This document shows positions 2,401 through 50,514 of a DNA stretch of 64,000 bases, piece after piece (position 1 is the first letter of the stretch; each line of letters opens with the position of its first letter). Below the pieces are notes generated by a model that was given only the letters and a program-made list of their open reading frames with translations, did no database searches and was not told the DNA's origin. Location: contig JADQWC010000029.1 of the NCBI GenBank assembly GCA_017979445.1, forward strand, positions 1-64,000, given 5' to 3'. This stretch comes from Akebia trifoliata. Lineage: Eukaryota > Streptophyta > Magnoliopsida > Ranunculales > Lardizabalaceae. The translations under genes were made by a program, and so were the position numbers.

Positions 2401-2407
2401 AAAACTT

Positions 2408-3533: not shown

Positions 3534-3922
3534 TGAAACACATTTTGTAAAAATGGATTACTGTAGAAATATTGAGTTTAAAAAACCATTTTGTTAGTCC
3601 CTCAATTCAATTATCTGAAATCAAGATCGGCCAGTCAAATCCCCAAGGAAAAGGTGGCGCATAATGGCACTCTTAAATCACCTTATTTCCTTAAATAGAC
3701 ATAGTCTATCCCCCTCGTATCAATAGGGTAAGATCGTTCTTAGGCACCGACTTTGATCAAGAATTGCAATTGGTGCTTAAATTTTTTTATTTTTATTTTT
3801 CAAATCTAGTTTGTTGGAAAATGATTGGATTTATTTGAATTGATCGACCAATTATTGATCTTGATGGTTCACACATAGGTTATAGACATGGTTGAGATTG
3901 AATGAGAGATCTGGTTTGAGTT

Positions 3923-14649: not shown

Positions 14650-15645
14650 TAGAGACTAGCCAACCAACTGAACAAATAGCTCGTCGCATGGTTCTTTTGT
14701 GTGAATAAATCTTGCGTCAAGTCATTCTTCTAGCCAATTGACATTTGTCAGGCAGTTGACATTGTCCATTCCTAAGTATTACTGATGAAAAGTTGTTTTA
14801 GGGATTGACCAACCGACTATACAAATGGCTCGTCAGATGGTTATTTTGTGTTAAAAAATATTACGTCAAGTCATTCTTTTAGCCAATTGACATTTGTCAG
14901 CCAGTTGACGTTGTCCACTCTTAAGCACTACTGATGAACAGTTACTTTAGAGGTTGGCCAACTAGCTAGACAAATAGATCGTCGCATGGTTCTTTTGCGT
15001 ATACAAATCTTGAGTATCGGGATTTTGCAAGCCAATTGACGTTTGTCAGCCAGCTGACGTTGTCCACTCCTAAGCATTACTGATGAATAGTTGCTTTAGA
15101 GATTGGCCAACCGACTAGACAAATGACTCATCGCATGGTTATTTTGTTTGAACAAATCTTACGTCAAGTCATTCTTTTAGCCAATTGACGTTTGTCAACT
15201 AGTTAACATGGTCCACTCCTAAGCACTGCTGATAAACAATTGCTTTAGAGATTGGCCAACCGACTGTACAAATAATTAGTCCCATGGTTCTTCTACGTAT
15301 ACAAATCTTGAATCTCATGATTCTGAAAGTCAATTGAAGTTTGCTAACAAGTTGACGTTGTCCACTCCTAAGCATTACTGATAAACAATTGTTTTAAAGA
15401 TTGGCCAACTAGCTAGACAAATAGGTCGTCGCATGGTTCTTCTACGTATGCAAATCTTGAGTCTCGTGATTCTACAAGCCAATTGACTTTTGTCAACCAG
15501 TTGACGTTGCCCACTTCTAAGTGTTACTGATGAACAACTACTTTAGAGATTTGGTCAACTAGCTGGACAAATAGATCGTCGCATGGTTTTTCTACGGATA
15601 CATCTTTCATCATGCAATTCTTTTGATAAGTCAGTATTGTTCGTC
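14650..15645 (+). repeat. 149-bp tandem array (about 6.7 copies), satellite-like
   Basis: The landmark CTGATGA(A/T) or CTGATAAAC recurs at 14782, 14931, 15080, 15229, 15378 and 15527, exactly 149 bp apart. Each unit also has CCAATTGAC(G/A)TTTGTCA, GTTGACGTTGTCCACTCCTA and GGCCAAC(C/T)(G/A)(A/G)CT. No insertions or deletions separate these landmarks although many base changes exist. It lies between the start of the antisense gene and the 3' end of element A. Confidence 0.95.

Positions 15646-22812: not shown

Positions 22813-22856
<44 letters not shown>
22813..22856 (+). repeat. (AC)n microsatellite
   Basis: About 22 uninterrupted AC units, running into a short TATATAT. Confidence 0.95.
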
Positions 22857-22862
<6 letters not shown>

Positions 22863-22863
<1 letters not shown>

Positions 22864-23243
22864 GGATTATGATCCGTATACACATAAAACTGCTCATAAA
22901 GCTACATCGTGTTTTGTCTTACATGGGCAAAAATGCTTGGAATGGGCTGATTTTTTGTGAGGATGATCTCTATGGTGAGGAGATCATCCTTGCCAAAAAT
23001 CAGTCAATTATGAAAATTTTAACCCCATGTTTACAAGTCGAAAATTTTTAGACCATCCAATTTTTGTAAATCACTTTTGATGGGGTTAGAAGTTTTGGAA
23101 TGGAATGATTTTTTGCAAGGATGATCCCCTTACCATAGAGATCATCCTCACAAAAAATCAGCTCATTCTGAACCTTTTTAACCATATAAGAAAAAAACAT
23201 TGTAGCTTTATGAGTAGCTTTATGTGTCTACGGAACCCGACCC
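22863..23243 (+). mobile_element. Fold-back MITE (about 380 bp, near-complete hairpin)
   Basis: The left arm TCCGTATACACATAAA...GCTCATAAAGCTAC is mirrored at the right end by GTAGCTTTATGAG...TTTATGTGTCTACGGA. The inner parts also pair: GCTGATTTTTTGTGAGGATG and ATCATCC...AAAAATCAG occur as inverted copies at 22945-23013 and 23105-23170, and TTTTAACCCCATG pairs with GATGGGGTTAGAAG around a centre near 23055. Almost the whole element is one long imperfect inverted repeat with no coding capacity. Both ends abut AT dinucleotide runs, so the target duplication cannot be read. Confidence 0.8.
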
Positions 23244-26200
23244 TATATATATATATATATACCAATTCAATCCTATTTGCTAATCATCAAATACATCTAT
23301 AACAATTTACCATAAATAGCCCATATCACTTTCTAACGTTCCTTGGTCATTAATAAAGTTGATCTTGTAATGATAACACATACCAAATTTGGATAGTTGA
23401 CACAATGAACCTTGTTTGTGTGTATGTGTGTTTGTGAAGCATAATGAAGATGGCATGGCCACCAGAGTGGGCTACCAAATCTCCAATTTTTAAGATGAAC
23501 ACCAGACAGAAAAACATAAACAAAAGAAGAATTATAAACAAGGAATCTCGCCATGACGAGGTTTTGTTATTCAAACTAAAACCTATCAATTCCACAAAGT
23601 CAACTATCAACAGAACTAGAGCCTTATTACAAAACTCTCTAGTCCACATAATGAATCTTGTTCCTCCATTGAATTCCATCTAAGCTACGTCTTTTGTTAA
23701 TTCAAAAGACATCAAACCAACTAGTACAAGTGTTTAGCCACGCTTCCTATACTTAGCGATCGTTTTATGAGATTAGTACTACCCAAGAACTATGTCAAAG
23801 TGCAAGGAAATAGCAAGGAAATCCAAAGAAACCCATTGAGGATAATCTTGTAACTCTATTATGATAAACAAACAGTATTATATTTACTTATAACAGAAGA
23901 AATACATAACTAAGAGCAAATGCAAAAGATAGATGTACATTTTTTGACAATGTAAAAGAAAAGTTTGATTACCTTTGGGGATTTGACTTGATTCAAAGAC
24001 ATCTCAAGTTGATGCTCAAGTTGCAAAATTCCTAGTACATGCCAAAAATCACACTCACAAAAATGCAAAAAAAATCTATATATCTATATATATATATCAT
24101 CACCATGGATCAAGAACAAAGAAAAAAAAAACTGAACCAAAACTCAAACCAAGAAAAGTAATGCATGGGAAAACCAACAAAAAAAAATATGCATAGATTG
24201 TACTAGTTGCACAAGGATAAGAAATTAAGGAATGTTTGTAGGGTTTCCAGTTGACCTTCCAAAGGTAGGCAGGCAGGAAGGCAATCACAGTAAAGAGTTA
24301 GTCACTTAATCCTTGCACCAAGTCCCATATGTCATTTTGATTGGAAAAAATATTAGTTTGAAGAATTTTGAAGAAGAAAAGAACTAATCAAATGAAGAGA
24401 AGAATAAGAACATACAGATAAAATTGAAGGTATTAAGAAAAACAAATTGGTTTCAAGTCCTTATCGATGTTACAAAATTCTCTAGGGTCATTTTTTTGAA
24501 AAGAAGATTTTGTTGTCCCATCCATGATTGTAAAATTTACTCGAAATCTTGTCAGATTTTATTGTGAAAGAACCTAACCACCCACACAATATTTTTAGAC
24601 AAATTGGTTATGATATACATTGCCCACGTCTAAGTCCCACAAATCTGATTTATATCTTTGCCACCACCAACACTATGCAATACCCATATCCAAAACATTC
24701 ATCAATTTTATCTCCTCAGTTGCCACCACCAACACTATGCAATACCCATATCCAAAACATTCATCAATTTTATCTCCTCAGTTTCCACCACCAACTAGGA
24801 CCAATGTGTCTGGGTCAATACTTTCCAATTAAAAATTTTCTTGAACTTAGTTGGTCAGGATCAAAGGGAAGTGGACCATTTGATCTGATATTTATGATTG
24901 ATGTACCACCTAACTTAAACCCATAAGATTTCCATTAGATTTGACTATAAAATTGGACCTATTAATGTATAAGATTAAACAAGGATCCTTGCTTATGATA
25001 ACATCAGACTTATCCCCACTTTCCATTAAGGGATTCTTTAGGCAAAAGGATATACTCAATCCCCTGCAAAGAAGGAAGTTCAAAGTAGTTGTCTAAAGGT
25101 CAACATGATAGGATGAAAATACCCATTGATCTATCTTAACTGGGAAGAAAAAGATTATTAATATTATGAGCAAATTGTATAAAAGTACTAGACTGATTCA
25201 ATAGAAAAATATATGAAAATCCATCATATATCTCAATAATAGACCATTTCCACCAATAGACCTTCCAAGAAAACATAAAAGATAGTCCCAAACATGTCTT
25301 GAAATCAGAATGCATTGAAATGCGGTAGGTAACTCAAGAAGCATTTACCGTAAGTTGGGTCACTCCAACTTTCACCAACAATTTACTGAGGGACTTGGGA
25401 GAGCAAACCTGGTACATGACCTCACCTGAAGGTGATAGGAATACTTTGGCCAATTCAAGATTTTCCAAAGTCACCCATGATTTGGAACCATGTATTAGAA
25501 CAAAACATGTTTCTAAGACAAGTTAGCTTACAATACAAACCCGACTAATTAAAAACATAGTTTTAGTCCATTCTCAATAATTAAAGAGCCAAATTACACA
25601 AACTAATGATATATAACAACTTACCAATTCATGGTATGGTAGCTTGGGACTACTTTCAGTGTATACAAACCACCATATGAACCCAGCAACAGTTGTTACA
25701 ACATAAGTTGTAAGAGCCAAATAACATAGTCATGCACCTTTATTAGTAATCAAAGTTCAATGAACATATAGAGTGAAAAATGTGACAGATTAGCCTTCGT
25801 AAAAATTTGAATGATGATGATGATGACGTGGTAAAAATTGCAACCATGGTATATTAAGAGCATTTTCTTTTCTTCTAATGGTAAGCAAGAGTAGAAAATT
25901 CATAACCCCATGGTTCTGATGTAGTACATGAGCACTTCAACCAATTGAGAAAAAGGCTGAATCCCAATGGGCATATCTTAGAAAACACTTACTAAAAAAC
26001 AATGAGATGAGAAAGACTTGTATGCCCCATCTCATCTCCTTTACACTATTTTTGGTGCAATTGCCACTTTACTACTACCAAAGAAAAACTACCATATTCG
26101 ATAAACATGAAAAAAAAAATATTGATGAGTTTAAAACTTCCATCAAATTTCTAAAGGTGTATATAAGAAACTTGAGATTGTAATTCAACATCAAGGTTAG

Positions 26201-26788: not shown

Positions 26789-29700
26789 TGTAACACCCCG
26801 AGTTTTAAATTTATATCTCGAGGAAATCAAATTGTGAATTTCGATAAAATCCTAAAAGAAAGACTTAAGGTAGAATACTCAAATTTTAGTTCATTCATTT
26901 TTAATGAATTTTGACTTAGCTATCAGGTTTAAAATGATCGAAATATATACTTTAGCCTGTAAGAGTGTTCAAATTCGAGTTTGGATGAGAAAGTTATAAA
27001 ATTCTTGAATTTTGTGTTAAGTGGGACCCAAAATAGTGAATTTTTGATAGAGGAAGAATAAAAAATATTTAACCACACCATGAGGTCTGTAACAAAAAAT
27101 TATTCGAAATGGAATACTCATATGTCATTTTTTGAGTTCGAATGGTCAAGATTTGGTCAAAAATAGAAACGAAGGAAAAATATAAAAATGCCATCAACTT
27201 TTATTATAAAAAGTACCAATTCATTCTTTTATTCACTTTCTCCTCTCCAACTCACTAAGAATCCGCCCATTCTACAAACGTAGGGTTTCAACGCTTCCCA
27301 TCAAGATCTATCACAAGCGAGTCCAAGTTGATCATCGGCGAAGGAGAGAAAATTGTCGTCATTGACAAATTTCACACCTACAACCCGTTTAACCTTCATT
27401 TTTCTTTCTTTCTCGTGTTCACTCACAAAAATCAGCAAGTAGGTTCATCTATACCCACTATAGAGTCTCATCCAAATCAAAGAAGAGTCGTCCATCGTCA
27501 TTAGAAAGGGGAAGAACACCTTCAAAGAGGGTTTCACGACTAACCACACCGTTGGCACCCGAGTTCAACCACTTTCGAAACTTCGAGCCACCAAACATTG
27601 ATCCTTGGTGTTGGTTCATTACCATGGACAACCACGAACCAAGTAGGGGACTCTCAATTCTTATTAGTAGTCGTAGATTTCAAAAAATTACATTTAGAGA
27701 TGTTTCGAAACTTGTGTATGTTTTAAATTTATAGAATGTCGTTTAAATTACTTTAAATTCATGATACAAATTATTATGTTTGATTTGTTTTATCATACTT
27801 TGAATATTTAATTCATAGGTGGGTAATTAGAATCGAAAACGAGTGAAAAACTCAAAGAAACGATGAAATAAAATGGAAAAATTGGTGAATTTTCAATGTT
27901 CTGACGGTGCCACAGTGAAAACCAAAAAGTGTCCGAAAAGTTTTTTTAAATTTTTTTTGGATTCCTCATGCTTTTAACATGCCAAAACGACTATTTATGA
28001 TCCACGTAACTCCTTCAAACGAAGTAGGAAAAAAATAAATAAAATTTCGTCACGACGGAATGTTTCAAGTATGCACCTGATATCCTTTGCATTACTTTAA
28101 ATTATGTTACAAAATTACATGACCCTTTTCATGTTGTCAAGGGCCTTCATTTATAAAAATTCATTTTCAATTTCGACAACTTTAAAAAATTGAGTTTCCA
28201 ACACTTAGCCAAACTTTCATCAACTTTTTCAGTTTTAGCAGTTTGCTTTCGAATACCTATTGGGACCCCATTTTAATGAAAATTGGATAGTTTTTCGATC
28301 GAATGATCAAAGTAAATTTGAAAGCTTGAAAAATAAATATTTGATTTGAAAAGTCGAGAAGTAAAAACACGGTAGAATATGAAAGGGATGAATCGGTAAA
28401 ATGTCAGAATCACACCGAATGGTGATGTCTGCATTTTACGTTGTATGTTGTGTGTAGGTTGGTGAAAGGATATCCAGGGATAAATGAAAGGGTTGCATGT
28501 TTATTTAAATTTATGTTGACGTAGAGGCTCCAAGTACTGTTGTTTATTTTAGGCTGGGTAGCCACAGTTGCATGGTAGGAAACTGGATATCTACTCCCAA
28601 CCCTGTTCTGTTAATTTCTCTTTTATTTTTAAATAAAAATAATATATATATATATACGTAGTTATTTTGTGAGCCGTTAAAGAGTCTATGAATGCTTGAA
28701 GAAATAGTACATCATGTCATCCCGAATGGTGTACTATCTTGGGATGTACGGTAGGGACCACCAAGCTCATACGTGGTATGGGACGCGTATGAGAGTGGAG
28801 TCACAACTGAAATCCGGGTCAATTCCCTTCTATCTTTTACCAGTGAACGTGTATTGTAAAGGTAGTCGTATATGAATAGAGTGTTTACTTTGGGAATCAC
28901 ATGCACGCCTGATAGGCATAGATGAAGATGCTTAGTCAGTGATCACTAACAATCTAGTAGTAGTCGAACGTTCTGATACATCGAAAAGAGACCCATTGCT
29001 TACGGTCATGTCAAATGGCCCGCCTGAGCCGGATAAATGGTCACCAGTGTGGTAAGAGTAGCATCGACCACAAAATCAGAAACTAAAAGTCGGATTTATG
29101 TTGTAACATCACGTTCCGACTGGGAGCGATCCAGTCGTGAATCCCAACTCCAAAATTTTACTACTCCACCACTTTGTATTATTTATCTGTTACTATATTG
29201 TGAATTATAAACTACAAAGCATGCTTGTTATGTCAATGTGATAAATCATAGTTGTACAACAAAATGAAAATGTATAATGAGTACTGATGATTGATGCCAT
29301 GTGAATCTTTAAAACTATTTAGTTGCTCATCCCTGGCTATACGTACCAGTTAACCGTAATTTTAATAGTAAAACTTACATGTATTAAAATGTTTCAGTAT
29401 GCTTATTCGTACATGTTAGGTGAGGTTATTAGTAGGGGTTGTTTGTGGACCTACTGGATAACTATTGTTACTCACCATTTTCTTCCTATTTTTTTAGCTT
29501 CAGAGCCTGCAGTCGAAGAGGAAGTAGTAGAGCCGTTTGTGAGGATTATCTTGTGGGTCATACCGACGATCAAAGTCCGTTACCTTGTGAGCATCATGAC
29601 TAATTCTACTAAGAGTCTGTTTGTCCTAGGAGAGGTGGAGGTTCTTTTTGGGGGCCAAGTGCTATGTCTATGTTAGAGTGAAGAAATTTTTGTAATCCTA

Positions 29701-29931
29701 TATATTTCCATCTTTTTGTGCAAATCTGATCAAATTCTACGATATTCGTAATTTATTGTCTTCCACATCTTGTGTATTTTGAAACATTGCTATATACAGG
29801 ATTTATTGATTATTGGCTTATCAGTTTTCTTTGCTTTTGATTTCCGTGAAACGCTAACATAAGAAGAGAAAATTATTTAAACTTCGAGGTTTGACCTTGG
29901 GATTTGTGTTAGCATTTGACGGGATGCCTCA
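26789..29931 (+). mobile_element. 5' LTR of the Tekay-like element (3143 bp)
   Basis: Starts TGTAACACCCCGAGTT and ends GGGATGCCTCA. TTATAAAAAG near 27205 is a TATA candidate. A frame at 27552 (MAPEFNHFRNFEPPN...) has a counterpart at 48072 in the other LTR; this follows from the two LTRs having been identical at insertion and is not evidence of a gene. An exon-like block near 29490-29670 (see findings) is conserved in all Tekay LTRs here. Confidence 0.9.
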
Positions 29932-31571: not shown

Positions 31572-33659
31572 TGGAGTCGCCACCATTCACTTTGTAAGTG
31601 GGTGTGAATGGTCACCCGATGCACATTTTTCGAAAAAATGACATTTTTGGCACGTAGTGACTCACGATGGATAAGGTACTAATCAATCCTTGAGATTCAA
31701 AATAAGCGGCTCGGTTGGAGAAAAGAGAAGGTTTTAGACACCCTTTTCTCCCTGCCAAGTTGCGATAACCTCAACTCAACTCGATCATTTTGATTAAAAA
31801 TACAAAAATAAAAAAAAAGTGCCACGTGTTGATAATGTGTATCCTAAGTCAGGATTTATTTTTGGCTTGATTATAGGATCATCTCATTGAAGGAAATGAT
31901 CCTTATAGATCCTTAGCCTTGGGAATAATACATTTTTAAAAGTGTTGAGAAGGACCTAAAAATCGGTTGCCTCAAAACGATTTGATGGGTTAAATCGGTT
32001 TTATTTTTTTATGACGGTGGTTACAACCCTTATACTTTCGACCAAATCAAAGTTTGATCTACCAGAGATAAGGGAGGGGAAACATTACATCTTAGGGGCT
32101 ATCTAAAATAAAAATTAAAGAGAAGTGAAAGGGAGCAGTAGAAGAGGGATATGGAGAAGGTAGAGAGAGAGAGAGGGGGTGTTCTTTTGACCCACCTTGA
32201 AGCTTCAAGGTTTTCTTTTCTTTTCTTTCCTTCCTTCTTCTTCTTCTATGTCTTCTTGAGTTGAGTCCTTAATGAGTTATGAGAATATAACTCTTTTGAG
32301 ATTAGTGTGAGAGAGTAGTGAAGTGATGAGTAGAGAGTTGAGAGTAGAGAGTAGAGTGATTTTTTATGTGAGACTTTGTAAGATTTTTTTAGTGAGAATT
32401 GGTAACCATTTTTGGGAAGAGGAGGGGGGTTTCTATAGATGTTGGGAAGGTATTTTAGGGGTATAATGGGGTGAAGTGTGGGAGAGTAGAAAATGACATA
32501 TGTTTTAAAAGTGGGGGTATGAAATTAGGAGTTGGGAGAGGGGTAGTTATGTAATGGAGGTAAATGGGTTATGTTTTAATCCAAATGGTTTGGATCTTAC
32601 CCAAACCATTTGAGTGAAATGTTTGGTGAGGTGAGATGATGGTGTTTAAGAGAGTGGTTGATTAATTGAGTGGTGTTTGGATTAAGAGAATGGAGGGTGT
32701 AAGAGGGTGATTGGTGGGTGAGGGAGATGGTGACATGTGGCAAGATGTGTGGATGTTAGGGGTTTAGATTTAATTAATGGGAGAGATTGAGTGTTTAATT
32801 TGAAAGGATGGGTGTTGGTTTAAGTTGTAGAGATGAGTTTATAGAAAATGATGATGGTAGATTAGGGAGAGGTATGATGATGGTAGGTTAGGGGGAGGTG
32901 TAGGTTGGAGGTATTTGATTGAGAGAATAGGGATTAGGAAATTATGAGGATAGGGTAGGGGGGTATGGGTTGATGGTGTTTGATTTGAGAGAATGAAGGT
33001 TTATAGGGAGTAATGAGGGTAAGTTAGGGGAAGGTGTGGGTTGATGTGATTTTTTAGAGAAAAGGTGATGTGGGTAGTTAATCTTTTAGAGAAAAGTGAT
33101 AGGGTGGGTGGTTTGATGAGGGAGGTGAGAGGGGGTGATGACATCTGTCACATTTTGAAGATAAAAGAGTAATTGGTTGATGTGGATTGTGGTTTATGAG
33201 TTAGGGTTGTGGGTTCGATATGAATTGGATATGGGTTTGGGCTTAGGGGCATTGGGCTTGGGTTTTTCAGATTTGGAAGTGGAGAGGTGGAGGAGGGTAT
33301 AGGAGGTGGTAGGCATCCCAAGTCTTGTTTTTTAATTTTTTTTATTTTTTGAGATCATTGGTTTGATCAAAATGCCACATGTTGGCAAATCGGGCTTTTA
33401 AGTCCGTCGGAGAATTTTATTGAAAATCGAGTATTTTAGGATATAAGAGAGGAGCGGTGAAGATTGGGAAGGTGTAAAGTAGGTTAAATCCCTTTGATGG
33501 GCCCACTAAAGCATTAGAAGGTCTCAAGGGCCTCGATTCGATCAAAATGCCATATTTCGATTGATTTGGGCTTTTGAGGCCCGTTGGCAATTTTTATTGA
33601 AAAATCTGTATTTTTGGGCCCTTTAGAGTAGGGGCCCGTTCAAATTAGGGTGTTTATAG
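31572..33659 (-). mobile_element. 3' LTR of Y2 (about 2088 bp)
   Basis: Plus strand TGGAGTCGCCACCATTCAC to TTAGGGTGTTTATA; the final GTCTACA of the family has mutated to GTTTATA. A purine-rich ACAAAGAAAGACAGC on the minus strand just outside (33674-33660) is a plausible polypurine tract. It is GA-rich on the plus strand, with CTTTTCTTTTCTTTCC near 32215. Compared with the other Y2 LTR it lacks a segment of about 35 bp near 31942 between short GTTG repeats. Confidence 0.85.
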
Positions 33660-34056
33660 CTGTCTTTCTTTGTAGGAATTGCGTGCAAAGAACTGCAAAG
33701 AATAGACTAAACCCCTATTTGTACAGGCCAGAAAAATTATGTAAAAGTGCGATTTTGAATTATCGATTGTATTGAAGATTTTTGTAGAAAATGGTTACTC
33801 AAGCACGAGGTCTGATAGAGTTTTACCTTATTAATTCCTTGATCTCGATGGCGCGGAGCTCGTGTGAGATCTTGGATTTGATGAAATTTTGATGAGCTTA
33901 GAAATTCAAATATTTCTTCAGTCACGTTTTAACAAATCGGAATTGAGTACAACTCGAAAGGATTTTTTAAATTCTTTTGAATTTTTTTATTATTATTATT
34001 ATTTTAATCCACTCTTCATTGCCCTTTTTTTTATCTTAGTCTATTTCTACCATAAG
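33660..34056 (-). other. Y2 3' UTR between LTR and captured sequence
   Basis: AT-rich with a TTATTATTATTATT run near 33985. No gene recognised. Confidence 0.5.
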
Positions 34057-34304
34057 TTAACCCTCTCAATTCATGCATTGTCCCTTGTAATGATGTCTTT
34101 GATCTTTGCAACGGTGCAAGTAATATGGTTGTTAATAGTTGCCACAGATCCAAGAGAGAGTTTTGTTGTTGGGCCACAAGTTACTCTTCTCAATTCATGT
34201 ATTGTCCCTTGTAGTGGTGTCTTTGATCTTTTCAATGGTGCAAGCAATATGGTTGTTAACAGTTGCCACAGATCCAAGAGAGAATTTTGCTGTTGGAGTC
34301 GAAT
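34057..34304 (-). pseudogene. Captured HD-Zip IV C-terminal tail, tandemly duplicated (2 x 124 bp)
   Basis: On the minus strand the end of a class IV homeodomain-leucine zipper protein is present: [20 protein letters not shown] continuing into [12 protein letters not shown]. It occurs a second time 124 bp further on as LSLGSVATINNHITCTVAKI. Class IV HD-Zip proteins (GLABRA2/PDF2/ANL2 group) end with (F)[19 protein letters not shown] then NNLIACTVERIK, so the match is specific. The duplication falls in the same orientation and keeps the same borders (34181-34304 and 34057-34180). Confidence 0.8.
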
Positions 34305-34871
34305 CAACCAAGATCTGAAGGCAGGAGGGTTACATAGTCTGAGTTACCCCCATTTAGAGTCACATTCATTGCAACAATATCAACAGGAGCATAGACTACG
34401 AACAAGCCTGTTGCATCGGTACTACTCTTTTGCAATATCAACATACTTTTTCGCACTTCTTGATTCATCATCACACCAATATTTCCAGTTGGCATGTCAC
34501 TAGCCATAACACTTGCAAGGCGTTCGCATTATCGATCTAAGGTAGCAACCCATCACTTTGTTCCAAATCCAAGGTTAAAGTTAACCAGTGTTCTATATAT
34601 ACTGTGAACTGCTTTGTCATCCACTTCTACATGTTCGATCCATATAAACTTGGAGTAACCATTTGGCTTTTCTTGGATTAAACAGCTTAATGGCCTCCTT
34701 CGATATCTCAATATCGGGCTAGGACACAAATGATGTAAGAAAATATCGACCACCACCCAAATCCCCTCGGCATGTTGTTTACAATACCTAACAAAGAAAC
34801 TCTTTCAAGTCAGAACCAGAGGTAAAAGGACTTGAAATTCTGTTGTCATCACTTGAAGGGCTCCATCTGTG
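34305..34871 (-). pseudogene. Captured HD-Zip IV START-domain region
   Basis: Minus-strand reading: DGALQVMTTEFQVLLPLVL, stop, [66 protein letters not shown], then [20 protein letters not shown] and [20 protein letters not shown]. These are, in order, the second half of the START lipid-binding-like domain and the following conserved region of GLABRA2/PDF2-type epidermal transcription factors. Two segments are missing: between RKSML and LILQ (about 100 codons in family members) and between LLPS and QILVDS, both at short shared bases. Stops at three places show it is not functional. It lies in the same orientation as Y2, between the Y2 integrase and 3' LTR, without visible introns. Confidence 0.85.
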
Positions 34872-36433
34872 ATGCCTACTGAGTCGTGATGCTTTGGACA
34901 CTGAGGTGGTGATGAGCCAGGTTACCCAGATCCGTGCTTTGAAGGAACGTCTTGACTCATTTTTCATTTTTTACACTGATGCTTGATCGATTGCGTTGTT
35001 TACCACTTTTTGTATTTTCTTGTCATTATCTGAATGTATGCAAAATATTGAAAGATTAATGCAAAGAAAATAGGTTTTGTACTTACTTGGCCTCAGGTAT
35101 ATCTATTATTCTTGGAAACATGAAGTTTTGTTGAATGAGACCTAGATTTGTCGTCATTGACCAAAATAGTAGTTTTTTAAAATTTAAGGAAATGTCTTTA
35201 TCAAATGCGTACGATAAATTCAGAGTTTCTAAAATCTTTGGTTGTGTTTAATATTTTTGCCAAATATAGAGGATATAAACATCAATTGCTCTTTTGGTTC
35301 CTTTAGAGTCATCCCCAGTGCCCTGGTATTGGAAAACTATTATCTGTTTGGGTCTTGGAATTTTGGAAAGATTTCACCGTTCACAGTTTATACTCTTGCA
35401 GGCCAAGAGTTGTTTTTTTTTTACCCTTATTGCCCCTGGTGCCAATTACGATTTTCACCAGACCCGGTTTCCACGTTTTTACGCATCGATGTCCTTTTTG
35501 AGATTTTCATCGTGTCGGTGGCTTTGATCTTGCCATAGTTTGATTTTTTTACTCATAGCGCCCTTTCGGATTTTCACTGTGCCCTTTCAGATTATGGTTG
35601 TATTTTTGGATTTTTACATTGTGGTTCTTGCTCGGAGTCTTTGTGTCTTTGTGGCTTGGTGACCCAAGTTGAGCTGCGAAATCGGCGACTCTACTCTTGT
35701 AGTGGCACTCTTTCTTGAGTAATAGATCTAGATTCCCCTCTCAAGTTTGCGAATGACTATTCGTGGTTCGGCAACTCAAGTTGAGCCACGGCATTGGCTA
35801 CTCTACACTTCGAGTACTCTTTTTTTTTTAATATCCGACCTGGATTCCCCTCTCGAGTCTTCCAACGACTAACAAGACTTTGAGGTCCGGACCAAGTTGC
35901 GAGATCATTGGTGCTGTCATTGTCATTGTGTTGCCCTCGAACATTCTCTGATCAGAAATGACTTTTAGTGGGACGAAACGTTGGCTTAGGCTTATGGTAG
36001 TGGAAGGATACAAAAAAAGTTAAGGTTTGGATGTATTTAGAGTGGTTTAGACATGGGGCTCGTCTATTTTTATTTCGAAAAAAGTGATCTATGTCTCATC
36101 CCAACGTCTCTCGAACTTGTTTAGGCTAGAGATTTGGGTCGAGCTTAGATCAAGTGTTCGAGTTTTGACTGTTTTGATTTTTTTATATTTTTAGCCGTTC
36201 ACAGTTTAACCTCATGGGGGCCAGGAGTACTTTTGATGCTTTTGATTTGATTTTCTGATTGTCTCTTCTTTTTTTCTTTTTTTTTCTTTTTATTTTTTTT
36301 GTATCGTTTTGTAGTTGTTGACTTGCCCCAATCTTAGGTTAAGAAATGAACGTGATGGCTCAAAAGGATTGACTAAGGTAGATAGTTTGTTCAGGATATC
36401 AAGGATGGCCTTTCGTCATTTCAGGATTAGTTC
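34872..36433 (-). other. Y2 3' untranslated region between integrase and captured sequence
   Basis: No protein domain seen on either strand. It contains the 112-bp repeat block (35645-35930), and a repeated GTTCACAGTTTA...GCAGGCCA/GGGGCCAGGAGT phrase near 35385 and 36193. Confidence 0.5.
35645..35930 (-). repeat. About 112-116 bp tandem repeat (2.5 copies) in the Y2 3' region
   Basis: CAAGTTGAGC(T/C)... and GATTCCCCTCTC(A/G)AGT recur; the AAGTT landmarks are at 35666, 35778 and 35894. Copies differ by many substitutions. Confidence 0.75.
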
Positions 36434-37671
36434 TTAGGCGTAGTATTTCTTAATAGTGTCAGCATTGATCGGTTGCGAGAAGACTTGTCCGTCCATCTCC
36501 GTAAGTATCAAAGCTCCTCCTATCATTACCTTTTGTACGATGAATGGTCCCTCATAGTTTGTTCGAAACTTTCCCTTGGTGTCTTCTTGAATTGGCAAAA
36601 TCTTCTTCAAAACAAGGTCTCCTGGTGAGAAAACCCTAAGTTTGACTTTCTTATTGTAGGCACGAGTTATCTGTCGCTGATAGATCTGTCTATGGCAAAT
36701 GGCTGCGAGGCGCTTCTCTTCGATTAGATTTAACTGGTCAAACTAAGCTTGAATCCATTCAGCTTCATCCAACTTTGCTTCTTTTAAGATCTGGAGGGAG
36801 GAAATCGCAACCTCTATGGATAAGACTGCTTCCATTCCATATACCAGTGAGTATGGAGTTGCCCCAGTCGAGGTTCGATAGGCATGGAGTGCAAAAGGCA
36901 ACATGTCGTGCCAATCTTTGTATGTAACTGCCATCTTCTCGATTATTTTCTTGATATTCTTGTTGGCTTCCTCGACTGCTCCATTCATCTTGGGTCTGTA
37001 CGGTACAGAGTTGTGATGAGTGATCTAGAATTCTTCGCACATCTTAATCATATCCTTGTTCTTGAAGTTCTTGGCATTGTCAGTCACTAGTCCGTTGAGA
37101 AATCCGTATCTGTAGATAATGTTGTTTTTGACAAACTTCAGGACGTTGCTTTTGGTGACATTGGCATAAGATGCTTCTTCTACCCATTTAGTGAAGTAGT
37201 CGATGGCAACTAGGATGAAACAATGCCTATTTGCTGCTTTTGGTGAGATTTGCCCGATGACGTCCATGCCCCAGAGCGAGAAAGGCCAAGAAGTAGTCAT
37301 ATTATGCAATTCTGATGGTGGAGCATTGATCTTGTTGGCATAAATCTGACATAGATGGCATTTGCGAACATGCTGATAGTAGTCACTCTCCATTGTCGAC
37401 CAATAGTATCCCATCCTCATGATCTTCTTGGTCAGCATGTGACAATTCATGTGGGGTCCACAGACTCCACTATGTACAGTCTCAATTAGTCGTTTTGCTT
37501 CTACTTTTACTACACATCGAAGTATGACCTCGTGGTGTGATTTCTTGTACAGAATGCCATTACTGATAAAAATTATCCTGCCAATTTCTGAATAGTCCTT
37601 CGATCGTTTGACGTTGCATCTAATGGGAGGATTCGAACTTAAAGATATGCTTTGATGTCCGAGTACCATGG
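36434..37671 (-). pseudogene. Y2 integrase, nearly intact
   Basis: Minus strand: an HHCC zinc-binding part (SGVCGPHMNCHMLTKKI, HVRKCHLCQIYANKI), then the catalytic core with all three acidic residues (LWGMDVIGQ; LVTDNAKNF; KMNGAVEEANKNIKKI), then AYRTSTGATPYSLVYGMEAV, and a C-terminal part ending GQVFSQPINADTIKKYYA and TAA at 36434. Integrase would insert the cDNA into the genome. Only two in-frame stops were noted: after MCEEF and after EWIQA. The upstream end is cut by the X2 LTR at 37672, so RT and RNase H are not joined to it. Confidence 0.85.
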
Positions 37672-39448
37672 TGTAGACACCCCATTTTTGCATCCGCCTG
37701 ATTAATCAAGTCGTCAACCCGATCGCAAAGGTTCCCAATGATGGATGTCTATTCCAATGCTTTATTTTGTTACCAGATATGTTTTAGAAATACGGATGAG
37801 GTATCTCGAGCTAACAAAACTTAGAAACCACGCTACGCTAGGAAAATACTACCCCAGAAACATAGAAATCATCATCCTGCAAGCCAAAAAAGAAGCTTCA
37901 CGATAAAAATCACTAAAAATGACCAAATTACCAAAATACCCCTAACATCAAAATAACCTTAGAGCCTACATTACGCTTAGGAAAATCTGTTCAAATACAT
38001 AAAACGACAAATCGAAACCAAATAAATCATTTCGCCAATTTTCACAAAATTTGACAAAATTACGAAAATACCCCTCATAAAATTCATGATCATTTCACGC
38101 AAAAAATTTCATAAATGACAAAAACCAACATTCCCATTGAATTCCTTACGAAAAATTGATTTCAAAACATCCTGGAACATTGAAAAACGACTTAAAACGT
38201 AAAAAATCCTCTCCGAGGGCAAAATGGTAATTTCACAATTTTAATAATTAAAAATTTTGAAATTGATAAATAAATCATTAAATAATGTAAAGTGAAACAT
38301 TAATGAAATTAATTATTAAAATTTAAACCAAAAAATTTATTAATCAGGTTTTCAAGCAAAATTGTTAAGGGTTCGCAAGATATTTCTTTAGGACCCCTCC
38401 ATTTGGGGGTTCAAAGAATTAAAGATATAATAGAGGGGGTTTCTCCAAAATTTAAAGTCAATCAAGCAAAACTAAGGTCAAGATATTAAGTCAATCAAAT
38501 AAGACTAAAGTCAAAATTAAAGTCAATTAAGTAAGACTAGAGTCAAGTATTAAAGTCAATCTCATAAGACTAAAGTCAAAATCCTAAATCAAAACCCTAA
38601 TCTAAACTAATCGAGTCAATCTCATAAGACTAAAGTCAAAACCCTAAATCAAAACCCTAATCTAAACTAATCAAGTCAATCTCATAAGACTAAGGTCAAA
38701 ACCCTAAATCAAAACCCTAATCTAAACTAATCAAGTCAATCTCATAAGACTAAAGTCAAAACCTTAAAACCCTAAAGACTAAGTCAAAACCCTAATTGAA
38801 ACCCTAAAAGAAACCCTAATCAAACCCTAATGCTTCTAAAAACTTTATAAATAGGAACCTCCACACCCTATTTTCGTATCAAAGAAAAAACCCTAGGAAA
38901 AGTAGGTAAAGAAGCCTCCATAGCCTCCCCAAAACCCTAATTTTGGAGCCCCAACTCCTTCCCTAACACCCCTACTCCGATTTTAGCCTCAAAAACACCC
39001 AAAAACCTCTCAAAAACATCACAAAAATCCACAACAAATTTGAAACACTCAGATCCAAGAAGGAGATACCTTACCTCGGAGATCAGGAATCAGATCCGAA
39101 GATAGAACGAAGTAAGGAATACGGTACAAGGAGCCATTCTAACCAGATCTGAGGGAATAACACTTTTGCAGATCAAAGGTAAATTTTTTTTTTTTTAATC
39201 TAGGTTTATCATTAGCAATGAAGATCTATTTGGGATAAGTAGAGACCGGCATTGGCCGGGCGGGATTGGTGCCTAACACCTTCCAACCTCGTAACATGAT
39301 CCCCGGATTAAGATTTCTATAGTAGATTAGTTCTTTTTATCCATTGTAGGGTCAATTTGGTTCCTAGATCGTAATAACTAGGTGGCGACTCCCAAACCTC
39401 AAGGGTCAAAAGCGGATCCGCGCACCCTGCGGATCAAGAGCTCTTTCA
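37672..39448 (+). mobile_element. 5' LTR of nested element X2 (1777 bp)
   Basis: TGTAGACACCCC to GAGCTCTTTCA, followed after one base by a primer site, so a 5' LTR on the plus strand. Very similar to X1 (1234-3017), with the same CCCTAA-rich repeats and TATA box (TATAAATA near 38846). It is inserted in Y2 just upstream of its integrase, and the five bases before it are CATGG. The matching 3' LTR is missing. Confidence 0.9.
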
Positions 39449-39468: not shown

Positions 39469-42049
39469 ATTGAGGATCAAACTTGAAAAATCCCAAGTAT
39501 GGGAGTATTGCTAAAACGATCTAGATTGTTTTTATTATTATTATTATTTTTTGTTTCTTTTAATTTTGTTTTTGTTTGTGTCAATCTCTTTGTTCAATTA
39601 CTGATCGCGTGTTTGGATCGTAGATATTCTACTTTTGCATATTACTATTATTATTATTTTTTTAATTTTTTGGTTCAATCGTGAGTCACTTTGGGTGATT
39701 CTAAATAAACGTTAAATTTCAAAGGAATAATTTTATTGGGGATGGAATAATAATTATTGAACCTGGGGAATTAAAAAAAAAAAAAGAACAAAGGATTTTT
39801 TTTTCACTAAGCTATTATAATCATTGTTTTTTATGTTTTTAAGTGTATCCGTTTTGGCTAATAAAAGATTTAAAGAAAAAAAAAAGAAAAACATGTATGG
39901 ATCTGTCCTTTAATAGTAGTGTATTTTTACTTATTAAAAAAAAAAAAAAATTCAAACGTTCTGTGGTCATATGACAGCAAGCAAAAAGAGTGAAAAAAAA
40001 ACAAAACTTTGGGGTGCTGTTAGCAGTGTACGTGGGTGTTAAAATCAAATTTTATAAAGAGTGTGTTTTCAAGGAATTTTTTTTTCACACTTCCATCTTC
40101 TCTCTTCACCCACGCCCTCATCTTCTCTTTTCGTCTTTCTCCCTGATTTCCAATTGATCTGATATTGATCTAGTTTCCTTTTGATCATTAAATCAGCCCT
40201 CTTTGAGATCAATCCTCCTTCTTCTCTAACGACTGATGACAATGTTGTAACCCTTTGGTTCGTCAATCTGATTTTTGATGTTATGGTTTCCAAAATTTCT
40301 GTCTTTGATCTCAGATTTGGTGCATAAATGTAGTTTCTGCTTCTATTATACACTAAGTTTCCCATTAGACTACCCTTTTGGAGGGCAAACACGATATACA
40401 AGCAGTCTTTTGGTGATGAAGAGTTGTATAAGCTTTCTTTTAAGCATCCATGGTGTCTGAAATACATTAATCAACTGGTTATTTTCTGAGTCTGTGCTTT
40501 ACAACGACATTCATCTAAAATTCCATACTACAGTTGCCGAGTGTTGGTAAGTCTTGAGGTGAAGAGAAGGATGATTACCGAACTTTCAATTGGGCTGACA
40601 AGGACTTTGAGTTCAGCATTCCTGGCTGTTTTTTTTGTTTAGTTTGTCATGGTCCATTAGCAACGCCAGTGAAGAGATCTCCAGGTCAAAGATTGCTGTT
40701 TGAGCATTTGTCTCCCATGACGTTTGCAATCTGGACTGCCCCACAAATAGTAGTTCGATTATCGTCCTTGAAAATTAGGTCCTGTCAGACCAGATCTTCG
40801 AGATGGGTCTTCGCTGGTTTTTACAGTGAATGAGAGGGATTAATTTATTACCATGTCATGAAAGTCTCACGTGTGATGGGTAACGAGTAAGTCGATGATA
40901 CGTATCTGAGGCATGCATGCATGCGCTACAGCATTATCGCGTCTGTGATTTAAAATCTAGAAACTATGGGGGGCCAAGCCTAATGTTTCTGATTTTGTTG
41001 TTTAATCTAAAAGCTTGGGCTACAAGCTTTGACCAGGTCTGACTCACGCAACAGTTAACTCGTCCCCCACCTTCACTTTTATTTCCACATAAGCCTGTGT
41101 TTTTATCCAGAGTCAGAATGCACCAAGTTATGAGAAATTAATTGCCTAATTTCTATAGACTTGGTTGGGTGTGCCAATAGGATTTATTTAAAGGTTGTAA
41201 TCTTGGTTTTTTTTAATGGTTTTTTTTTTCTTCTCTCTCTCTCTCTTTTCTTCTTTCCCTCTTTTTATTTATTTTAATAAAAAAAAAAAGAGGTTTTTAA
41301 AAAAAAAAATTTCTTTATCTCATCAATGATTGTTATATCCTCAATTTGATATCTCTTGAAATCTTGAATTATTTTAGGATCACCCAAAATAATTCCGATT
41401 GGACCGTATATAAAAAAAAAAGGGAGCAAATCCATTTGATAAAGAAATAAAGTGTTTTGCTGTGTGCATGTCTCAATATTGGATTTGGTTAGGGTCACCC
41501 CAAGATAGCCTTGATTGGACTGTATTATTAGTCTTTATGATAATTGCCTATCTAACATGCCACAATCTTGCTTGAGATTCGTGTTTGATGATTGATCATA
41601 ATGTTGATATGATGCAATGTGATTGGATTGGTATTTAATATTCAATGTGATATCAATGTTATAGTGATTTGATTGGACCCGTGGGCCCATTTGTTTGAAA
41701 AAAGCCCCGGGCACACCCCACCCTGCTTCGCACACACCACATGCACGTTTACTGTTTTGAGCACTTACACGTCCTATTTAAGCCAACGTGGCACTAGTGC
41801 GTGGCCCGGTCTCTTCGGAGATGCGACGTCATTCATGAAACCCACAACTCCAGTCACGTACCTTAGGGTATATCAAACTGGGGGCATCAACACCATCTGA
41901 TCAGGTGATTCTGAGAGGTATATTGATGCACCCAGGCTGGAGCGACCTGAGCCTTTGACCTATTGTGAGCCACACAGTCACATGTCCCGATTGCCAACGT
42001 AGTACTAGTACGTGGTCAGTCCCCTCATGGGATGCCAACGTAGTACTAG
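39469..42049 (+). other. X2 leader and rearranged junction; no gene
   Basis: Starts ATTGAGGATCAAACTTGAAA like the X3 leader (56424). AT-rich with long T and A runs (39540, 39775, 39936, 41280) and CT repeats near 41235. A GC-richer part from 41690 contains TATTTAAG (41771) and a block starting GCCAACGTGGCACTAGTG at 41774, related to copies at about 41994 and 42034. Gag is not recognisable. It ends against a truncated Y2 LTR. Confidence 0.6.
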
Positions 42050-44094
42050 TAAGTGGGTGTGAATGGTCATCCGATGCACATTTTTCGCATGTAGTGACAC
42101 GCGATGGATAAGGTACAAATCAATCCTTAAGATTTGGAGTAAGCGGCTCGGTTGGAGAAAAGAAAAGGTGTGAAGCACCATTTTCTCCCCGCTAAGTGGC
42201 GGTAACCTCAACTTAACTCAATCATTTTGATTAAAAATACAAAAATAAAAATAAAGGGCCACGTGTTGATAATGTGTACCCTAAGTCGGGATTTATTTTT
42301 GGCTTGATTATAGGATCATCCCATTGAAGCAGATGATCCTTATAGATCCTTAGACTTGGAAATAACACATTTTTAAAAGTGTTGGCAATGGTTATGGACC
42401 CATTCTCATGAGTTGAGAAGGACCCAAAAATCGGTTGCCTCAAATCGATTTGATGGGTTAAATCGGTTATGTTTTTTTATGAAGATAGTTACAACCCTTA
42501 TACTTTCGACCAAATCGAAGTTTGATCTACCGAAGATAAGGGAGGGGAAACATTACATCTTAAGGGATATCTAAAATAAAAATTAAAGAGAGGTGAAAGG
42601 AGAGTAGTAGAAAAGGGATATGGAGAAGGTCGAGAGAGAGAGGGGGGTGTTCTTTTGACCTACCTTGAAGCTTCAAGGTTTTCTTTTCTTTTCTTTCCTT
42701 CCTTCTTATTCTTCTATGTCTTCTTGAGTTGAGTCCTTAATGAGTTATGAAAATATAACTTTTTTGAGATTAGTGTTAGAGAGAAGTGAAGTGATGAGTA
42801 GAGAGTAGAGTGATTTTTTATGTGAGACTTGGTAAGATTTTTTTAGTAAGAGTTGGTAACCATTCTTGGGAAGAGGAGGGGGGTTTTTATAGATGTTGGG
42901 AGGGTATTTTAAGGGTATAATGGGGTGAAGAATGGGAGAGTAGAGAATGGCATATGTTTTAAAGGTGGGGGTATGAAATTAGGAGTTGGGAGAGGGGTTT
43001 TTATGTAATGGAGATAAATGGGTTATGCTTTGATCCAAATGGTTTGGATCTTACCCAAACCATTTAGGTGAAGTGTTTGGTGAGATGAGATGATGGGTGT
43101 TTAAGAGGGTGATTTATTGATTGAGTGGTATTTGGTTTAAGAGAATGGAGGATATAAGAGGGTGGTTGATGGGTGAAGGAGATGGTGACATGTGGCAAGA
43201 TGTGTGGAGGTTAGGGGTTTAGATTTAATTGATGGAAGAGATTGAGTGTTTGATTTGAGATGATGGGTATAGGTTTAGGTTATAAAGATGGATTTATAGG
43301 AAATGATGATAGTAGATTAGGGAGAGGTATGACGATGGTAGGTTAGGGGGAGGTGTGGGTTGGAGGTGTTTGATTGAGAGAATAGGGATTAGGGAATTAT
43401 GAGGGTAGGTTAGGGGGGTATGGGTTGATGGTGTTTGATTTGAGAGAATAGATGTTTATAGGGAATAATGTGGGTAGGTTAGGGGAGGGTGTGGGTTGAT
43501 GTGATTTTTTAGAGAAAAGGTGATGTGGGTAGTTAATTTTTTAGAGAAAAGTGATAGGATGGGTGGTTTGATGAGGGAGGTAAGAGGGGGTGATGATATA
43601 TGTCACCTTTTGAAAATAAAAGAGTGATTGGTTGATGTGGATTGTGGTTTATGAGTTAGGGTTGTGGGTTAGATATGAATTGGTATGGGTTTTTTCGGAT
43701 TTGGAATTGGAGAGGTGGAGGGTATAGGAGGTGGTAGGCGTCCAAAGTCTTGTTTTTTAATTTTATTTATTTTTTAAGATTTTTGAGATCATTAGTTTGA
43801 TCAAAATGCCACGTGTTGGTAAATCGGGCTTTTTAGGCCCGTCGGAGAATTTTATTGAAAATCGGGTATTTCGGGATATAAGAGCAGAGCGGTGAAGGTT
43901 GGGAAGGTGTAGGGTAGGTTAAATCCCTTTGATGGGCCCGCTAAACCATTAGAAGGTCTCAGGGGGCTCGATTCGATCAAAATGCTATATTTCGATTGAT
44001 TTGAACTTTTGAGGCCCCGTTGGCAATTTTTATTGAAAAATCTATATTTTTGGGTCCTTTCGAGTAGGGGCCCATTCAAATTGGGGTGTCTACA
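42050..44094 (-). mobile_element. 5' LTR of Y2, truncated at its inner end
   Basis: Plus strand AAGTGGGTGTGAATGG to GGGGTGTCTACA. Compared with the left Y2 LTR it lacks about the first 27 plus-strand bases, including the GGAGTCGCCACC block, and the primer site that should adjoin it. The break is next to the duplicated GCCAACGTAGTACTAGTA, which points to an illegitimate recombination that also removed Y2 gag-RT and most of X2. Confidence 0.8.
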
Positions 44095-46225: not shown

Positions 46226-46797
46226 AAATGGGAACACGTGACCATGGACTTTGTAGTAGGGTTACCGAGAACTAGTGACGGGTCGGATGCCATATGGGTG
46301 ATTATGGATCAACTGACGAAATCAACGCATTTCATCCCAAACTGAGTCAGATATACATAGTTGCGATAGTACAACTACATGGATTGCTAGTTTTTATCGT
46401 GTCAAACAGGGATCCCAGATTTACTTCCCGATTCTGGGAGAGTCTGCACAAAGCAATGGGTACTCAACTGAACTTCAGCACAGCATTTCACCCACAGTCT
46501 GATGGACAGTCCGAACGAGTAATTCAAATTTTAGCAGACATGTTGCGGGCATGTGTTTTGGATTTCAGAGGGAGTTGGAAGTGTCACTTACCGTTGGTAG
46601 AATTCTCCTATAATAACAACTTCCAAGCTAGTATCAGCGTAGCACCATTCGAGGCTTTATACGGTAGGCTGTGTCAATCACCAATAGGTTGTGCAGAAAC
46701 TAGAGATGCTACGTTATTGGGGCCCGAGATTGTTGAGAAAACTACTGAGACAGTATGCATTATTCGAGACATACTAAAAACTGCTCAGAGTAGATAG
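46226..46797 (+). pseudogene. Tekay integrase catalytic core
   Basis: WEHVTMDFVVGLPRTSDG (first Asp) in one frame; after a frameshift near 46340, FIVSNRDPRFTSRFWESLHK (second Asp), FHPQSDGQSERVIQILADML (Glu) and EFSYNNNFQASISVAPFEAL. The DDE triad is visible but split over two frames, and a stop follows KTAQSR. Confidence 0.85.
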
Positions 46798-47308: not shown

Positions 47309-50300
47309 TGTAACACCCCGAGTTTTTAATTTATATCTCGAGGAAATCAAATTGTGAATTTCGATACAATCTTAAAAGAAAGACTTAGGGTAGAATACTC
47401 GAATTTTAGTCCTTTCATTTTTAACGAATTTTGACTTCGCCATTAGGTTTAAAATGATTGAAATATATACTTTAGCCTGTAAGAGTGTTCAAATTCGAGT
47501 TCGGATGAGAAAGTTATAAAATCCTCGAATTTTGTCTTAAGTGGTACCCAAAACATTGAATTTTTGATAGAAGAAGAATCAGAAAAATTTAACCACACCA
47601 TGAGGTCAGCAACGAAAAATTATTCGAAATTGAATACTCATATGTCATTTTTTGAGTTCAAATGGTCAAGATTTGATCGAAAATAGAAACGAAGGAAAAA
47701 TACAAAAATGCCCCCAGCTTTTATTATAAAAAGAACCAACTCATTGTTTTATTCACTTTCTCCTCTCCAACTCACTAAGAATCAGCCCATTCTACAAACG
47801 TAGGGTTTCAACGCTTCCCATCAAGATCTATCACAAGCGAGTCCGAGTTGATCATCGGCGAAGGAGAGAAAATTGTCGGTATCGACAAACTTCACACCTT
47901 CAACCCATTTAACCTTCATTTTCCTTTCTTTCTCGTGTTCTCTCACAAAAATCAGCAAGTAGGTTCATCTATACCCACTATAGAATCTCATCCAAATCAA
48001 ATAAGAGTCATCCATCGTCATTAGAAAGGGGAAGAACACCTTCAAAGAGGGTTTCACGACCAACTACACCGTTGGCACCCGAGTTCAATCACTTTTGGAA
48101 CTTTGAGCCCCCAAACATTGATCCTTGGTGTTGGTTCATCACCATTGACAACCACGAACCAAGTAGGGGACTCTCAACTCTTATTAGTAGTCGTAGATTT
48201 AGAAAAATTACATTTAGGGATGTTTCGAAACTTGTGTATGTTTTAAATTTATAGAATGTCGTTTAAATTACTTTAAAATCATGATAGAAATTGTTATGTT
48301 TGATGTGTTTTATCGTAGTCTGAATATTTAATTCATGGGTAAGTTATTAGAATCGAAAACGAGTGAAAAACTCGAAGAAACGATGAAAAAAATGGAAAAA
48401 TTCGTGAATTTCCTGTGTTTTGATGGTGCCACCGTACTCCAGTCACTGTGCCACCGTTCTCCAGTCACGGTGCCACCATGAGCCACCGTGCACCAATCAT
48501 TGTGCCACTGTGAAAACCAAAAAGCACCCAAAAAATTTCTGACATTGTTTTTGGATTCCTCATGCCTTTAACATGCCAAAATGACTATTTATGGCCCACG
48601 TAACTCCTACAAAAGAAGCGGGAAAAAAATAAATAAAATTTCGTCACGACGGGAATGTTTCAAGTATTCGCGTGATATCCTTTGCATTACTTTGAATTAT
48701 GTTACAAAATTACATGACCCTTCTCATGTTTTCAAGGGCCTTCATTTACAAAAATTCGTTTTCAATTTCGACAATTTTGAAAAATCGAGTTTCCGACACT
48801 TAACCAAACTTTCATCAACTTTTCCAGTTTTGGCAATTTGCCTTCGCATGCCTATTGGGACCCCGTTTTAATGAAAATTGGATAGTTTTTCGACCGAATG
48901 ATCAAAGTGAATTTGAAAGCTTGAAAAGTAAATATTTGGTTTGAAAAGTAGAGAAGTAAAAATACGGTAGAATGGAAAAGGGATGAATCGGTAAAATGTC
49001 ATAATCACACCGAGGGGCGATGTCTGCATTTTACGTTGTATGTTGTGTGTAGGTTGGTGAAGGGATATCCAGGGATAAATGAAAGTGTTGCATGTTTATT
49101 TAAATTTATGTTGACGTAGAGGCTCTAAGTACTGTTGTTTATTTTAAGCTAGGCGACCACAGTTGCATGGTAGGAAACTGGATATCCACTCCCAATCCTG
49201 TTCTGTTAATTTCTCTTTTATTTTTAAATAAAAATGATATATATACGTAGCTATTTTGTGAGTTATTAAAGAGTCTGTGAATGCCTGAAGAGATAGTGCA
49301 TCATGTCATCCGGAGTAGTGTATTATCTTGGGATGTACGATAGGGACCACCAAGCTCATACGTGATATAGGACGCGTATGAGAGTGGAGTCACAACTGGA
49401 ATCCGAGTCCATTCCCTTCTATCTTTACCAGTGAACGTGTATTGTAAAGGTGGTCGTATATGAATGGAGTGTTTACTTTGGGAATCACATGCACGCCTGA
49501 TAGGCATAGACGAAGATGATTAGTTAGTGATCACTAACAATCTAGTAGTAGTCGAACGTTCTGACACATCGAAAAGAGACCCTTTGCTTATGGTTACGTC
49601 AAACGGCCCGCCTGAGCCGGATAAATGGTCATCAGTGTGGTAAGAGTAGCGACCGACCACAAAATCAGGAACTAAAAGTCAGATTTATGTTGTAACATCA
49701 TGTCCCGAATGGGAGCGATCCAGTCATGAATCCCAACTCTCTAATTCCACTACTCCACTACTTTGTATTATGTATCTGTTGCTATATTTTGAATTATAAA
49801 CTACAAAGCATGCTTGTTATTTCAATGTGATAAATCATAGTGGTACAACAAAATGAAAATGTATAGTGAGTACTGATGACTGAGGCCATGTGAATTTTTA
49901 AAACTGTTTAGTTGCTCATCCCTGGCTATACGTACCAGTTAACAGTAATTTTAATAGTAAAACTTGCATGTATTAAAATGTTTCAATATGCTTATTTGTA
50001 CATGTTAGGTGAGGTTATTAGTAGGGGCTGTTTGTGGACCTACTAGTTACTCACCCTTTGCTTCCTGTTTTCTTTTTAGCTTCAGAGCCTACAGTGGAAG
50101 AGACAGTCGTAGAGCCGTTTAGTGAGGATTATCTGGTGGGTCATACCGACAACTAGAGTCCGTTATCCAGTGAGCATCATGACTACTTCTATTAGGAGTC
50201 TGTTCGTCCTAAGAGAGGTGGATGTTCTTTTTGGGGGCCGAGTGCTAGGTTTATGTTAGAGTGAGGAAATTTTTGTAATCTTGTGTATTTCCACTTTTTT

Positions 50301-50514
50301 GTGCAACTCTGATCAAATTCTACGATATTCGTAATTTATTGTCTTCCACATCTTGTGTATTTTGAAACATTGTTATATACACGATTTATTGGTTATTGGC
50401 TTATCAGTTTTCTTTGCTTTTGAGTTCCGTAAAACGCTAACATAAGAAGAGGAAACTATTTAAACTTTGAGGTTTCACCTCGAGATTTGTGTTAGAGTTT
50501 GGCGGGCCACCTCA
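47309..50514 (+). mobile_element. 3' LTR of the Tekay-like element (3206 bp)
   Basis: TGTAACACCCCGAG to GGGCCACCTCA. Longer than the 5' LTR mainly because of a short repeat expansion of GTGCCACCGT(A/T)CTCCAGTCA at 48426-48510, where the 5' LTR has only one truncated copy near 27904. The target duplication TCTAT follows at 50515-50519. Confidence 0.9.
48426..48510 (+). repeat. 22-bp repeat expansion in the 3' LTR
   Basis: GTGCCACCGTACTCCAGTCA is followed by a near-identical copy and then degenerate GTGCCACCATGAGCCACCGT and GTGCCACTGTG copies. Confidence 0.85.

Follow-up and report, generated by a model that had tools for sequence, protein, structure and literature searches.

The minus strand between positions 34050 and 34876 of the window (that is, the whole stretch of 64,000 nucleotides analysed here, from Akebia trifoliata) codes for portions of two domains, START and C-terminal, of a class IV HD-Zip protein. 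The segment is probably a retrocopy, now dead, that derives from part of a spliced mRNA of HDG2/ROC2 type and was captured by template switching in a Ty3/gypsy element, where it lies between pol and the 3' LTR. The captured part of the mRNA comprises the last part of the START domain, the C-terminal domain, the stop and a short 3' UTR. The original prediction had placed the segment at 34057-34871; the segment itself is confirmed, but its true span is slightly wider, from about 34876 to 34050. Its parts, together with the tract that follows it, are listed below, with the homologue P0004 as the reference.

34433-34876, minus strand: piece A, START domain, GALQVM to RKSML, in a single frame with three in-frame stops; ungapped alignment of 148 residues with P0004, 69% identical.
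34314-34444, minus strand: piece B, MLILQ...LLPS of the C-terminal domain; PDF2_C 3.4e-15; follows an in-frame loss of 119 residues relative to P0004.
34201-34317, minus strand: piece C, from QILVDS... to a stop near where the homologues end; 74% identity over 39 residues to P0004, in another frame; PDF2_C 8.5e-7.
34174-34296, minus strand: first copy of a tandem duplication (C-terminal codons, stop and short 3' UTR); 89% identical to 34050-34172.
34050-34172, minus strand: second copy of the tandem duplication; 66% protein identity over 32 residues to P0004.
33960-34045, minus strand: A-rich tract after the fragment, judged by base composition, perhaps the remnant of a poly(A) tail.

The membership of the HD-Zip IV family, as originally predicted, is borne out by both profile and sequence searches. 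Pfam START matches 34556-34804 (6.8e-15) and PDF2_C matches twice, in 34307-34528 and in 34198-34329, with the values given above, while the frame with the duplicate copy of the C-terminal end reaches only 0.0055 for PDF2_C, below the curated cut-off. All four START and C-terminal motifs that had been named on the minus strand are present, in the order given. When 120 listed full-length homologues were compared with the whole window by tblastn, the best match was the fragment (3.05e-64) and the best place outside it had an E value of only 0.14; therefore, chance is excluded as the source of the HD-Zip IV match. The best 120 of 1478 relatives are 65-72% identical to the fragment over 227 aligned columns, the highest value (72%) being that of a ROC2-like protein of Magnolia sinica, which may be a weak hint to the affinity of the host. 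Among these 120, HDG2 or ROC2 is the name of 54, PDF2 that of 4 and GL2 that of none, the remainder having general names or no name. As to the earlier label of a GLABRA2/PDF2-type protein, the names listed thus include PDF2 but not GL2, and most of the informative ones are HDG2 or ROC2. It should be noted that in a tree with the same best 120 of 1478 relatives the fragment sits on a long branch (0.38), with no usable placement.

The fragment has START and PDF2_C in common with HDG2, ROC2 and PDF2 class IV HD-Zip proteins at the identity stated above; unlike them, it cannot be translated through, and the tblastn search with the 120 listed homologues found neither homeodomain nor leucine zipper in the window. 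Other searches were negative: the START piece had no relative among solved structures (best E 0.53, to unrelated enzymes), Rfam gave no match in the window at the gathering threshold, and a search with the HD-Zip IV alignment, in which hidden plant DNA was sought in bacterial contigs, gave 43 pattern matches among public contigs, none confirmed. Against viral contigs, the same alignment gave 68 pattern matches and the integrase ORF of the surrounding element gave one, again with none confirmed.

A working class IV HD-Zip gene has a homeodomain, a zipper, a START domain and a C-terminal domain in one open frame; here we found START and C-terminal pieces only, three stops and one frame change. 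The in-frame stops stand at positions that are Arg, Arg and Gln in homologues. The first internal loss relative to P0004, of 119 residues, is in frame and lies between two ML dipeptides, and the second, of about 30 residues, goes with the frame change at TTCAG. The tandem duplication of the coding end and stop, absent from the earlier description, has a period of 124 bp and an identity of 89.4% over 123 bases (13 differences). Consequently, with its stops, its two losses and its duplication, the fragment is a dead copy, unable to code for a working HD-Zip protein. The two internal losses had been ascribed to joining at short shared bases; both are real by comparison with homologues, and joining at shared bases would be compatible with the sequence. 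Exon skipping was rejected as the cause of the first loss, whose ends do not coincide with the located exon borders 513/514 and 604/605. The second could possibly have come about by cryptic splicing (CAG/GT...TTTCAG/AT, in codons deduced from the protein rather than taken from host DNA). In addition, C>T and G>A account for 17 of the 27 minimal base changes counted where invariance is at least 98% (one residue at the deletion junction included), a majority that would fit the pattern expected of silenced, methylated DNA.

Whether the source was an mRNA or a genomic gene can be judged from the introns. Exon borders were located by means of short ORFs of other plants that run from exon into intron sequence, with the Vitis protein P0009 providing the numbering. 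The 121 ORFs examined (119 new ones and P0001 from the 120 listed of 285, together with P0002) all align to P0009. At border 388/389, four ORFs (P0124, P0141, P0195 and P0232) have a glutamine directly before Met389, as the CAG end of a splice site predicts. At border 455/456, the match begins at residue 455 after at least 6 unrelated residues in 15 ORFs, and that of P0002 ends at 456. At border 513/514, the match of 70 ORFs stops at 512-515 and is followed by at least 6 unrelated residues, and in five ORFs (P0125, P0127, P0129, P0132 and P0134) the frame continues through a short intron that immediately precedes VIT. The fragment is unbroken at all three borders (QV-MTTEF, YSK-FIW and NIG-VMM); a further border, 604/605, falls within its lost part. 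That HD-Zip IV genes carry introns agrees with the 10 exons reported for a cucumber HD-Zip IV gene, in the portion of PMC4696102 consulted. The original claims that the segment has no introns and derives from a spliced host mRNA are thus supported by 3/3 located borders, and this absence of introns points strongly to a spliced mRNA as the likely source.

The same borders bear on the possibility that a DNA transposon or a Helitron, in the manner of a Pack-MULE, brought a genomic gene piece into the element. Such carriers are described as holding plant gene fragments (excerpts of PMC13317346 and PMC7264820), but a genomic piece does not agree with the absence of introns at 3/3 borders, and just one inverted pair, of 15 nt with 87% complementarity (33795-33809 and 35708-35722), brackets the fragment as a whole. 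We regard this origin as extremely unlikely. Equally improbable, in our opinion, is a parent that was itself an intron-poor or already retrocopied HD-Zip IV relative, for which the missing introns would tell little about the route of capture. Some of the 121 ORFs do cross 388/389 or 513/514 without an intron, such as P0123, P0137, P0142 and P0171, all listed under protein names in databases, and the short ORF P0149, found on a public contig of 31.9 kb; the crossing of 513/514 counts to some extent against a captured spliced mRNA, and retrocopied HD-Zip IV pieces may exist elsewhere. However, the exon borders are common to many separate protein clusters, and RNA remains the more likely template for a sense-oriented capture within an LTR element. 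As for P0149, its N-terminal part, PPR-like by eye, is joined to an HD-Zip IV segment without the 513/514 intron, and it may be an independent retro-fragment.

The fragment lies within an element of 12.5 kb, which is nested backwards in another Ty3/gypsy-type element and is itself interrupted by an LTR, as follows.

31594-33656, minus strand: LTR copy on the downstream (3') side; matches 42049-44092, 88% with gaps.
42049-44092, minus strand: LTR copy on the upstream (5') side, starting TGTAGACACC; pairs with 31594-33656; the interrupted outer element (plus strand) is just beyond.
36434-37671, minus strand: integrase region, with Pfam Integrase_H2C2 and rve.
26789-50514, plus strand: outer Ty3/gypsy-type element interrupted by the HD-Zip-bearing element; LTR copies 26789-29931 and 47309-50514.
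37672-39448, plus strand: LTR of another element inside the integrase region, then TGGCGACTCCACTGGGGAC; 95% match to 1234-3017, related to 54847-56403; shared left end TGTAGACACCCC.

The two LTR copies of the HD-Zip-bearing element, which from its integrase and LTR type we take to be Tat-like, differ at 154 of 2000 aligned sites (7.7%) and bracket the fragment, which ends 0.4 kb from the downstream LTR and has the integrase on its other side. Integrase and fragment are both on the minus strand, that is, the fragment is in sense orientation. A place between the integrase and the 3' LTR and a common orientation of the two, both part of the original prediction, are thereby confirmed. In the integrase region, Integrase_H2C2 (6.7e-7) and rve (1.5e-8) are matched in 37025-37693, and rve_3 (0.023, below its cut-off) in 36746-37024, while 36437-36742, without a Pfam match, was read by eye as the C-terminal part of integrase. 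Neither gag nor RT of this element was recognised among the ORFs scanned with Pfam, which were part of the ORF list, nor was a target-site duplication of its own; therefore, the element itself looks like a broken copy. A primer binding site was considered for the sequence that follows the 31594 end, which would make that LTR the 5' one, and was rejected since the other strand reads, by eye, as the protease region of the outer element; the TTGGC...GGGGAC stretch after 42049 resembles a primer site too little to be trusted as one. Pfam found nothing in the antisense ORFs 33868-34500 and 35233-35535. Between integrase and fragment, two adjacent repeats of 112 bp, 72% alike, occupy 35648-35871 on the minus strand.

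How the mRNA entered the element is suggested by what is known of LTR elements, which are held to capture mRNA by in-particle template switching at short similarity, in theory repeatedly (an excerpt of PMC5408686); captured genes in plant LTR elements usually have the sense orientation of gag-pol, according to the excerpted text of PMC7264820. We infer the steps of capture from what can be read directly, namely the protein family, the absence of introns at three borders, the sense orientation, the location within an LTR pair and the decay. During reverse transcription in the particle, first-strand synthesis would leave the element RNA near its 3' end, and a co-packaged host mRNA would then be copied in the upstream direction, starting in its 3' part, with internal stretches of the mRNA being skipped. 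Synthesis would return to the element RNA, the product would integrate, and some further rounds of copying may have followed. Template switching agrees with the position, the orientation, the missing introns and the internal skips. With regard to this part of the original prediction, mRNA origin, sense orientation and position all fit, and template switching in the particle is plausible, as is, to a lesser degree, a LINE-type retrocopy.

In that alternative, a processed pseudogene truncated at its 5' end would be the work of L1-like machinery and, having inserted into an element of the present family, would have travelled with it from then on. Dicots do have L1-like retrocopies (PMC4838847, in the part consulted), and the fragment has lost its 5' end and kept its 3' end, as such retrocopies do, with the A-rich tract 33960-34045 directly after it; both features count against template switching, as does the broken state of the HD-Zip-bearing element. 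The tract is 60% A with a GC content of 19%, compared with 33-39% A and 34-39% GC in three neighbouring non-coding stretches, and is not a clean tail; it could be a poly(A) remnant under template switching and the LINE-type route alike. As regards a target-site duplication, between 34855-35010 and 33900-34060 there is none above chance, the 7- and 8-base matches being runs of A, which counts against the LINE-type route, though decay could hide an old one. Furthermore, an insertion after the element copy had integrated is disfavoured by a decay that equals or exceeds the LTR clock. We therefore consider the LINE-type route unlikely, though deserving of serious attention, and capture by template switching is retained as the preferred reading.

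The age of the capture was compared with the LTR clock by a decay test, in which rates were taken from the LTR pair and two codon choices were simulated 2000 times each; the counts leave out one residue at the deletion junction. At residues that are at least 98% invariant, 25 of 141 are changed, while about 13 are expected (P about 0.002), and at 95% invariance 34 of 164 are changed, with about 15 expected. At 100% invariance the excess is weaker and not significant (15/101 against 9.5-9.8 expected, P 0.05-0.07), which tells somewhat against the preferred reading. The best-fitting decay of the fragment is 1.5 to 2.5 times the LTR clock, and the tandem duplicate (13/123) is not clearly older than the LTRs. 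As the fragment has decayed no less than the LTR clock predicts, an insertion made late, into an element copy already complete, is disfavoured. These values hint that the capture may predate this element copy, with later re-copying; errors of reverse transcription or an already diverged source would give the same excess.

Captures of this kind are already known in plants, and the fragment belongs to the known class of LTR-retrogenes. For example, 27 LTR-retrogenes within rice LTR elements, as cited, and 8 in Thlaspi arvense are given in the consulted part of PMC8764390, and the genes catalogued inside LTR elements amount to 672 for rice and 1343 for sorghum, small RNAs being associated with some of them (excerpt of PMC3726574). 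Like the LTR-retrogenes excerpted from PMC8764390, the fragment is an intron-poor copy of a host gene between the LTRs of an element; unlike them, it is heavily decayed, with internal losses and a tandem duplication. Maize Bs1, as excerpted from PMC13317346, is likewise an LTR element with transduced fragments of host genes, but it holds pieces of three genes in a transcribed chimeric gene, whereas one gene type, with in-frame stops, is found here. Retand/Tat elements with long regions between POL and the 3' LTR share the extra sequence at this place, but their extra ORFs are antisense and mostly TRP28, in contrast to the sense host-gene fragment described here (excerpt of PMC11963269). Among the literature matches listed, none reports the capture of an HD-Zip IV gene by an LTR element, which is a weak negative.

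That a spliced transcription-factor mRNA came to lie inside a plant LTR element is well supported in this case, and the sequence that remains suffices for comparing the age of the capture with the LTRs of the element itself. It is very unlikely, in our estimate, that the HD-Zip IV mRNA piece is passed on by repeated copying in a whole subfamily of the element, whose transcripts feed small RNAs that dampen epidermal HDG2/PDF2-type genes. If sister copies carry the fragment, one could examine through them whether developmental genes, once captured, give rise to small RNAs directed at their parents.

The neighbouring elements fit the nested arrangement. The LTR copies of the outer element, presumably a chromovirus, differ at 252 of 3134 sites (8.0%), and the order of nesting fits this value, compared with 7.7% for the inner pair. 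Pfam finds Retrotrans_gag (8.6e-17), zf-CCHC (2.2e-4) and RVT_1 (1.5e-29) in the outer element, and no match in its part 46294-46794. The gag and zinc knuckle lie below 31.4 kb and the RT begins near 44.7 kb, while reading frames judged by eye to be protease-like border the insertion on both sides. The LTR at 37672-39448 interrupts the integrase of the HD-Zip-bearing element at 37672 and had no part in the capture. It is one of a family of four LTRs starting with TGTAGACACCCC, which we assume to be Tat-like, the others being 1234-3017, 54847-56403 and 22534-21864 (minus strand, that at 37672-39448 being on the plus strand). Two of the four are followed by a stretch resembling a primer site, TGGCGACTC...CTGGGGAC, and the one at 54847 splits a third copy of the outer element. 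In addition, tandem arrays with periods of about 34, 22 and 149 bp occur at 124-1005, 3021-3554 and 14650-15624, respectively, and the 397 bp at 22856-23252 form an imperfect inverted repeat of themselves, with 75% in self-comparison.
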